This document shows positions 23,836 to 25,156 of a stretch of DNA of 64,000 nt, in pieces (positions within the stretch are counted from its first letter, which is position 1; each line of letters opens with the position of its first letter). Below the pieces are notes generated by a model. The model saw nothing but the letters and a program-made list of their open reading frames with translations. It made no database searches and was not told where the DNA came from. The DNA lies in the NCBI RefSeq assembly GCF_002370355.1, contig NZ_AP017929.1, forward strand, positions 1,488,001 through 1,552,000. Reading direction: 5' to 3'. The stretch comes from Latilactobacillus sakei subsp. sakei DSM 20017 = JCM 1157. GTDB taxonomy: Bacteria > Bacillota > Bacilli > Lactobacillales > Lactobacillaceae. The translations under genes and the position numbers were made by a program.

Positions 23836-24420
23836 TTAAAGGCCGATTGCCAATTGTTGTTTCTTACTTAAAACTTCATCTTGGGTAATCCCAATATAAT
23901 GTAAAGTCGTTTCCTGTGTTGAATGGCCAAAATCAATCATTAATGATCGCACATCACCAAATTGTTTATAGAACCAATACCCGTAAGTTTTGCGCATTGT
24001 ATGTGTGCCAATATCATTGCGGCCGAGTTTCTTGCCCGCCTCGGTCAACATACGATAAACACCATTGACTGTAATGTGACTATCACCGATGCGACTCCCG
24101 AATAACCAGTCGTTACCAGTCAGTTCATTATTTTGAATATATAAACTAATGTAGGGTCGCAAACTGGTTAAACTAATTTGGCGCCACTTACCTGTTTTTT
24201 GTTCGACGATGACGGGGTTGTCTTCGATTACGTCTTTCACTTTTAATTGGACAATATCAGAACAACGTAAACCGGTATTGATGCCTAATAAAAAAAGTAA
24301 ATAATTCCGACTACCCATTTGGGAGTGTCGTAAGATAACTTTCATGTCCTCAATCTCGTCTTTGGTCCTTAAAGGCTGTACGTTTAATTTTTTGCCTTTT
24401 TTAGTTCGTGATTTTCGCAT
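23836..24420 (-). CDS. Short tyrosine recombinase (FimB/XerD-like)
   Basis: 194 residues made up essentially of the catalytic domain. The complete active site is visible: Arg52 (NTGLRCSD), Lys75 (VEQKTGK), His140 and Arg143 (THTMRKTYG), His166 (FGHSTQ) and nucleophile Tyr175 (LHYIGI). The N-terminal core-binding domain of phage integrases is reduced to about 20 residues. Such short forms include FimB/FimE-type invertases and many unassigned Firmicute recombinases. It has no excisionase or phage genes nearby. The adjoining 334 bases upstream are packed with inverted repeats, possible sites for it. Confidence 0.88.
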   Translation of the reverse strand: MRKSRTKKGKKLNVQPLRTKDEIEDMKVILRHSQMGSRNYLLFLLGINTGLRCSDIVQLKVKDVIEDNPVIVEQKTGKWRQISLTSLRPYISLYIQNNELTGNDWLFGSRIGDSHITVNGVYRMLTEAGKKLGRNDIGTHTMRKTYGYWFYKQFGDVRSLMIDFGHSTQETTLHYIGITQDEVLSKKQQLAIGL

Positions 24421-24437
24421 TAAAATTCCGTCCTTTT

Positions 24438-24727
24438 GACCGCATTCTTTTTACTTATATCATTATAAACCATGCGGTCGTATTTTGCACCCCTAACTAT
24501 CGTTGATTTAAAGGGATTCCGAGCGCATTCTTTCTACCAAAAGCGTGCGCTCATACCGATAAATACTAAAAGTGTCCCAAAGACCGGTCTAATCACGTTT
24601 AAAATACATTAATTACGAGAGGCGCATTTTAAGCGCATTTCAGATTAACTAACGGACAAGTGGTCGTTAAAACGTCTCAAATTACGGATTTAAAAAAGCC
24701 GGTTTTACTTGTCCAAAATTCGTAATT
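24438..24727. repeat. Cluster of inverted repeats in a 334-bp gene-free tract
   Basis: Four pairs are seen: GACCGCAT/ATGCGGTC (24438-24445, 24472-24479), GAGCGCA/TGCGCTC (24521-24527, 24546-24552), GGACAAG/CTTGTCC (24654-24660, 24708-24714), and AATTACG-ATTT/AAAT-CGTAATT (24680-24691, 24716-24727). GCGCATT also recurs as direct copies near 24523, 24622 and 24633. No ORF with a ribosome site was found. Candidate recombinase sites, operators or RNA structures. Confidence 0.6.
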
Positions 24728-24766
24728 GTTGTACGCTAAAAAGAAAAAATAGAAATGAGATTAGTG

Positions 24767-25156
24767 ATGTTAAATTATAACGCAATTCAAAAAGCGGTCG
24801 ACGCTGAACAGAATGCTGGTGACTTTCCAAAATTAATGCAGGCCTTTAAAAAACTGGGTGTCCTTAAATATGATTACCTTGTTGAATCCGGAAAATATCG
24901 CTATTACGATAATGATGGTTATCTTGATTTGAAAATGAATGGTGTGCCACAAAAAGTTACCCCTAAAAGTAATACCACTCAAATTAAAGCTGCGGTCCAA
25001 AAAGCACAAACTGGCCAAATTACTTTTGAAACATTTTGTGAGCTAGCTGCAGCTGCTGGCATTATTTATTGGCGAAGTGATTTAACCCAAAAAGTTGTCA
25101 GTTATTACGATCGAGCGGATAACTGTTTATTAGCGGAACCAATTCCCGGTCTATAA
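24767..25156 (+). CDS. DUF1398-family protein
   Basis: 129 residues, soluble, alpha/beta. The end TFETFCELAAAAGIIYWRSD and LTQKVVSYYDRADNCLLAEP matches the DUF1398 (YbcV-type) pattern of an invariant A-G-x-x-x-W followed by a Tyr-rich strand. Function unknown. Start at ATG 24767 (MLNYNAIQKAV) fits the family; an in-frame ATG at 24755 adds four residues. The ribosome site is weak. The gene stands alone between the repeat-rich tract and a long terminator hairpin. Confidence 0.75.
   Translation: MLNYNAIQKAVDAEQNAGDFPKLMQAFKKLGVLKYDYLVESGKYRYYDNDGYLDLKMNGVPQKVTPKSNTTQIKAAVQKAQTGQITFETFCELAAAAGIIYWRSDLTQKVVSYYDRADNCLLAEPIPGL

Follow-up and report, generated by a model that had tools for sequence, protein, structure and literature searches.

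A small tyrosine recombinase and two related upstream inverted repeats: a probable site-specific recombination unit in the Latilactobacillus chromosome

The analysis of a 64,000-nucleotide stretch of Latilactobacillus sakei subsp. sakei DSM 20017 (contig NZ_AP017929.1; hereafter the window, to which all coordinates refer) points to a locus where a small tyrosine recombinase gene is preceded by two related inverted repeats, named here site A and site B. Gene and sites probably constitute a self-contained site-specific recombination unit of the Latilactobacillus chromosome, devoted to resolution or to capture and release of DNA, and not to inversion. Site A is most likely the crossover site, and site B an operator or accessory site, as judged from their geometry, their conservation and the behaviour of related loci.

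The recombinase gene is located on the minus strand (23836..24420) and codes for a protein of 194 residues reduced to the catalytic domain. Its membership of the tyrosine recombinases is established by a match to Pfam Phage_integrase (PF00589; E=1e-20, 74.7 bits for a curated cut-off of 27.1). The complete R-K-H-R-H-Y active site announced in the initial annotation was recovered as R52, K75 (or K78), H140, R143, H166 and Y175, and, in the alignment with XerA, the five residues other than the Lys face identical residues. Among solved structures, XerA, an XerC-like protein and XerH are the closest by sequence, and the best PHROG is the integrase family phrog_216 (E=1.6e-50). The designation FimB-like is appropriate for the size of the protein but not for its family, as the scores of 34.2 and 32.5 bits against the FimB/FimE-type NCBIfam models NF007370 and NF007371 fall below the cut-offs of 221 and 222. 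The Xer equivalog cut-offs are missed as well, with 46.8, 42.4, 44.8 and 70.2 bits for XerC, XerD, XerS and XerA, respectively, against 335.15, 329.6, 267 and 220. The genome also encodes two larger paralogs comparable in size to Xer proteins, with open frames of 301 and 317 residues.

With regard to the neighbourhood, the five adjacent proteins comprise, according to Pfam, an alcohol dehydrogenase, a DUF1398 protein, a 2-hydroxyacid dehydrogenase, a DUF3307 protein and one protein without match, and no excisionase, integrase or phage gene was recognised among them by Pfam. This agrees, at the level of Pfam, with the statement that phage or excisionase neighbours are lacking, but one result goes in the opposite direction, the DUF1398 neighbour weakly matching the phage head-protein family phrog_413 (E=2.6e-4). 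The DUF1398 gene (24755-25156) lies between the upstream tract and the 2-hydroxyacid dehydrogenase gene; it has no counterpart in the four congener regions compared, one of which (L103) carries three other genes at this place.

The gap upstream of the recombinase gene is 334 bp long and contains, as described initially, four inverted-repeat pairs; all four are real, but only two of them are conserved. The pairs GAGCGCA/TGCGCTC, belonging to site A, and GACCGCAT/ATGCGGTC, belonging to site B, are kept in the alignment of six Latilactobacillus species, with single-base departures in some of them and more in L. fuchuensis. In the same alignment, GGACAAG/CTTGTCC is complete in this genome only, and AATTACG/CGTAATT is not retained in the other five species. 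The number of repeats in this sequence taken alone is barely above chance: seven inverted 7-mer pairs with a gap of at most 60 were observed for a mean of 2.87 in dinucleotide shuffles (39 of 500 shuffles reach seven), nine with a gap of at most 110 (reached by 63 of 500), and two inverted 8-mer pairs (reached by 138 of 500). The best palindrome of the tract with 13-base arms and a 6-base spacer has 11 of 13 positions paired, a value reached by 5 of 500 shuffles.

Site A (24521..24552) is a 32-bp inverted repeat made of 13-bp arms and a 6-bp centre, delineated by alignment and conservation, and its proposed function as a crossover site is drawn by analogy with relatives. Site B (24438..24479), delineated by alignment and geometry, is a 42-bp inverted repeat, GACCGCAT...ATGCGGTC, with arms related to those of site A and a length greater by 10 bp. 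It surrounds the probable -10 box of the recombinase gene, TATAAT (24462..24467, minus strand), picked out by eye and conserved in the alignment. A promoter consensus scan, which returned 7 matches for 5.1 expected, does not list this box and places a plus-strand promoter-like match over site B (24436-24463). The two sites are separated by a gap of 41 bp (24480..24520), the spacing of which is kept in relatives. Farther upstream, the six-species alignment revealed a conserved distal block, AGAGGCGCATTTTAAGCGCATTTCAG (24618..24643). The recurrence of GCGCATT noted earlier was confirmed, with copies in site A (24523) and in the distal block (24622 and 24633). A block resembling the latter was noticed by eye upstream of the recombinase gene in one other genus (L052). 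An Rfam RNA was considered and rejected, none reaching the gathering threshold.

The recombinase gene is present in all six Latilactobacillus genomes examined, and the upstream tract was matched in all six, over about 105 bp only in L. fuchuensis (G003). The orthologs share 96% and 97% identity in L. graminis and L. fragifolii, and 72% in L. fuchuensis. Across the six species, the invariant fraction reaches 0.81 in the arms of site A, 0.77 in the outer arms of site B, 0.68 in the A-B gap and 0.73 in the distal block, compared with 0.50 in the 6-bp centre of site A and 0.23-0.29 in the remaining tract. In L. fuchuensis, the same change, AA to CG, occurs at the same place in the right arms of both sites. 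The recombinase itself is strongly constrained, with a pN/pS of 0.03-0.04 against four congeners (pS of 0.18 to the nearest, and about 0.7, up to 0.71, to the other three); this ratio is the lowest among the compared local genes against three congeners, some genes showing 0.01-0.02 against the nearest one. In the phylogenetic tree, whose bootstrap is not fully settled, the Latilactobacillus recombinases group together (100/100) and L. fuchuensis is the first to branch off, which is the expectation from vertical descent. In L. fuchuensis, the recombinase unit is found at another chromosomal place. In the syntenic region of this species, the flanking genes lie close together and the part of the window from 20.9 to 25.2 kb is unmatched except for 21 residues; the DUF3307 neighbour had no match there, in a search run without positive control.

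The initial annotation had proposed an invertible switch, and the data obtained at this locus argue against it. The upstream tract is collinear across the six species, and no inversion around the gene emerged from a both-strand comparison of the 15 species pairs, the five short minus-strand matches corresponding to the palindromes themselves and to terminator-like hairpins. Furthermore, no rearrangement at site A was seen in the six species, each of which has one site A within 16 kb. Genome-wide, the strict pattern of site A occurs beside the gene in five of the six genomes (one base is changed in G005) and at one unrelated place in G002. When three mismatches were allowed in the core, 14 other places were retrieved from the six genomes compared with 15 for the reversed control, one place in G005 having two mismatches, and G001 and G002 standing above their own controls. 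The half-site with one mismatch gave 8 isolated places compared with 12 in the control, and half-sites lie close together only at A and B. The arms used in the core and half-site searches are unsuited to L. fuchuensis, and neither search would detect so weak a partner as the distal site of Lactiplantibacillus. With a collinear tract and no partner site detected, there is no support for a local invertible switch; the inversion of an adjacent promoter segment that typifies FimB/FimE enzymes was not observed in the six species, and no integron-like array was seen in Latilactobacillus, where one site A only was found. A second site A in the genus was considered and rejected on the strict, three-mismatch and half-site searches. 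Outside these genomes, the 32-base site A used as a query, too short to be sensitive, was covered to 80% of its length by a match in none of 12 plasmid records, and gave in phages three of 37 records at E 0.9-3, taken as chance; a degenerate form of the site, a weak test, retrieved nothing from viral contigs.

The arrangement of the two sites extends beyond the genus. An A-B pair with differing arm sequences was recognised in 18 of 42 family loci, this gene and its five congeners included; six of the 18 are from Latilactobacillus and five from one plasmid type, many of the 42 fetched loci are near-identical, and the arms were chosen after seeing the repeats. The arms are group-specific (CGCA, ACATG, CGCACG, ATACATGA, AATTCC and GTTCC), and some of these loci show further pairs (L009-L013, L054, L056, L057 and L064). 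The distance from the start of A to that of B is 71-73 bp in 17 of the 18 loci (89 in L058), and site B exceeds site A by 9-11 bp in 17 of them (32 in L052), and the spacing of the predicted sites, fixed across genera, resembles that of a core with a phased accessory site. Within a locus, the arms of A and B match at 7.5 of 9 positions on average compared with 5.06 when permuted, the observed value being reached by none of 20000 permutations; this comparison covers nine representative loci of our choice, one of which (L054) offers two B candidates. The Lactiplantibacillus locus possesses site A and no B with matching arms (3 of 9 in the arm comparison). By the arms used, the pair is absent from 24 of the 42 loci, three of which had shortened upstream DNA. 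In another genus (g13; L092 and L093), the same locus has GGCT as the centre of site A in one species and its reverse complement, AGCC, in the other.

Relatives of the recombinase, near and distant, are widespread: a search at E up to 1e-20 retrieved them from 107 of 301 Lactobacillaceae genomes, and they match in 2280 plasmid records, all below 60% identity, the best among the matches listed reaching 53.5%. The annotated records examined name them integrase, site-specific integrase or recombinase. Eight plasmids (162 kb) of Enterococcus, Carnobacterium, Desemzia, Vagococcus, Tetragenococcus and Lactiplantibacillus carry 26 A-type sites, compared with none in 522 kb of control DNA, in which one stretch is counted twice, L107 being part of the window. 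Among the 26 sites, three depart from the 24 specified bases at 4 positions; one plasmid, L109, was picked for its site match, and 23 sites in seven plasmids remain without it. These counts do not include L110, which is almost the same as L084. The shuffles made for these arrays, five in number, preserve single-base composition only and were scored in one orientation. Each plasmid has from one to seven sites (two plasmids have one), all oriented like the site adjacent to the recombinase. An array of site-bounded segments beside the recombinase, in an integron-like organisation, is present in L082, L083 and L084; in L083, consecutive sites enclose single genes coding for YcxB, MepB and a hypothetical protein. 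Same-direction arrays with segments of one or a few genes were noticed in L082, L083, L084 and L109, and the segment contents include MepB, YcxB, a cupin, bacteriocin immunity, a RelB antitoxin and cadmium resistance.

The sequence comparison of these plasmids suggests that their segments and modules are exchanged at such sites. A cupin-gene segment is common to a Vagococcus and an E. faecalis plasmid at 95.4% identity, starting 8 bases outside one site and stopping 2 bases before the end of the following one; the whole MepB segment of L083 was found in no second record (three records, two of them partial). With regard to the recombinase module, 26 of 28 plasmid pairs lose their homology at A, defined as positions -12 to +31 relative to its start. 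At the opposite limit of the module (L081-L087 and L109), 24 of the 28 pairs lose it no more than 4 bases from the stop codon. Modules may also be exchanged at the 3' end of the gene, as matches to this end recur downstream in L082 (3906-3984) and L085 (12676-12716). Other relatives (L113, L114, L115 and L116) belong to Streptococcus phages and a satellite, where they sit near the end of the early genes alongside a separate integrase in three records. No upstream repeats were scored in L113 and L115; two inverted pairs of TGACTAC-type arms, with outer lengths of 45 and 51, precede the gene in L114, and L116 has one 13-6-13 palindrome, resembling a terminator stem, 567 bases upstream.

A different use of the site was encountered in the genus coded g38, taken as Lactiplantibacillus since L. 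plantarum and Lactobacillus sp. CBA3606 have plasmids identical to the plasmid DNA compared from two of its genomes (G257 and G074). In this genus, the recombinase gene and the genes for Wzz, CpsB/CapC and a bacterial sugar transferase are divergently oriented. Between L097 (G074) and L098 (G226), which represent two species, a segment of about 170-190 bp lying between the recombinase and the capsule genes, from about -334 to -146 upstream of the recombinase, is inverted: a 189-bp minus-strand match at 90% was obtained, and inverting -324 to -155 in one of the two raises the alignment identity from 77.3 to 93.6%. The segment ends inside A-type sites, at the centre of which the half-sites are exchanged, the distal partner site being weak. 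Other pairs of the genus give shorter minus-strand matches. The segment carries a TTGACA-type promoter-like sequence, seen by eye, and is probably an invertible promoter placed between the recombinase and the Wzz/CpsB capsule genes. The idea of promoter inversion therefore seems right for this relative but unsupported at the Latilactobacillus locus. The msa inversion of L. plantarum (PMC8493755) was set aside, as it concerns a different promoter.

From these elements, we can propose how the Latilactobacillus unit might work. Strand exchange would take place within the 6-bp centre of site A, with recombinase subunits bound to both of its arms, as deduced from relatives. The same recombinase would bind site B, where the half-sites, which flank the probable -10 box, are spaced more widely by about one helical turn; owing to this extra turn, B should be unable to act as a normal crossover site. 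Site B would thus be an A-type site lengthened by one helical turn and lying over the promoter of the recombinase gene, bindable without being recombined, and could serve as an autorepressor operator. As an accessory site, it could also build with A a res-like complex at a fixed phase, with about 73 bp from start to start. With no more than one A site detected in the chromosome, the partner would have to be a sister copy or incoming DNA with a matching site. The most likely chromosomal role would accordingly be to resolve duplicated copies or to capture and release incoming site-bearing DNA, and not inversion, with a single, conserved and apparently functional site A remaining at the locus. 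Of the interpretations offered initially, that of a recombinase-bound regulatory region fits this scheme, given that B brackets the probable -10 box, shares the arms of A and is also predicted in other genera; that of an invertible switch does not. Several observations count against the scheme: neither a rearrangement nor a partner was found at A, the A-B pair is missing from 24 of the 42 loci by the arms used, Lactiplantibacillus has no B with matching arms, and the stop-codon boundary of the plasmid modules is as sharp as that at A.

Several other explanations have to be considered. The recombinase could flip a segment of the tract as a local promoter or regulatory switch, in line with the Lactiplantibacillus relative, which appears to do so beside capsule genes and whose weak distal partner implies that an equally weak one could be missed in Latilactobacillus; given the collinearity of six species, the lack of an inverted segment in 15 pairwise comparisons, the single A within 16 kb and no second one genome-wide, we regard this as very unlikely. 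Slightly less improbable, although still unlikely, is a transcription regulator with unused recombinase chemistry, A and B being just operators: a probable promoter lies within B, the searches yielded no partner site, and a regulator would fit the place of the phage relatives near the end of the early genes, next to a separate integrase; however, the catalytic residues are kept under strong constraint, and A-type sites are rearrangement boundaries in relatives. That the repeats are chance features beside an ordinary leftover integrase is hardly credible, for even if their number in the single sequence is marginally above that of shuffles, the six-species conservation, the cross-genus geometry and the arm matching speak against it.

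A possibility deserving more attention, if a rather doubtful one, is a domesticated plasmid multimer resolution system, in which A and B together would form a res resolving sister copies (dimers of the chromosome, formerly of a plasmid) with no cassette role. The many relatives on plasmids, the res-like look of the A-B geometry with its accessory site and the single site per replicon are consistent with it, whereas the two Xer-size paralogs also present in the genome, the different chromosomal place of the unit in L. fuchuensis and the many sites on several plasmid relatives are not. The probable reading remains a self-contained unit for resolution or for capture and release. A bolder extension, which we advance tentatively, is that Lactobacillales possess a Gram-positive counterpart of integrons, in which a small recombinase with a primary site (A and B) captures short A-type-bounded gene cassettes in one orientation, the Latilactobacillus copy being a platform without cassettes that selection maintains.

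The comparison puts forward target sites and a control site for the relatives closest to the gene, and makes these enzymes directly testable. It also outlines three possible uses of one design, namely promoter inversion, plasmid segment exchange and a fixed single chromosomal site, as relatives appear from their sequences to use same-design sites both in the exchange of genes between plasmids and in the inversion of a capsule promoter. It offers, moreover, a view of the transfer of small gene segments, those for heavy-metal resistance and toxin-antitoxin systems included, among the plasmids of food bacteria and enterococci. Among the matches listed, titles and abstract openings mention neither the recombinase and its sites, nor capsule promoter inversion by it, nor Lactobacillales plasmid arrays; subscription papers fall mostly outside this scope, and novelty is not thereby established. 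The available portions of PMC3539956, PMC4919987, PMC6722938 and PMC13174815 contain no description of the recombinase.

In the accessible part of PMC8138268, short 'simple' recombinases are assigned to dimer resolution, integron recombination and element mobilisation. Within the genus, the 'integrase' of the L. curvatus plasmids pRC12 and pRC18 is likewise a small (195 residues) tyrosine recombinase (PMC7117683), for which the text available to us gives no site or mechanism. The small recombinase on the plasmid of the present genome, putatively of the pRC12 type according to our own labelling, is 34% identical to the chromosomal one and forms a separate branch in the tree. The XerCD/dif and pdif modules of Acinetobacter, in the partial accounts available, resemble the plasmid relatives in their short two-arm, short-centre sites bounding modules; here, in contrast, a dedicated small recombinase lies beside the site, the plasmid sites share one orientation and an operator-like site B is present. 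FimB/FimE invertases are alike in size, in being reduced to the catalytic domain and in the inversion seen in a relative, but the chromosomal recombinase scores below their family cut-offs and no inversion was found at its locus. In Tn4430 TnpI/IRS and in the res sites of serine resolvases, a core is associated with accessory sites that are set at a fixed spacing and serve the same protein, whereas the accessory site is here a single lengthened inverted repeat over the promoter. Integrons combine a recombinase gene beside a primary site with a same-direction array of segments of one or a few genes. The plasmid relatives share this organisation, but their sites are short and two-arm, apparently distinct from attC, and the chromosomal recombinase matches an integron integrase only weakly.
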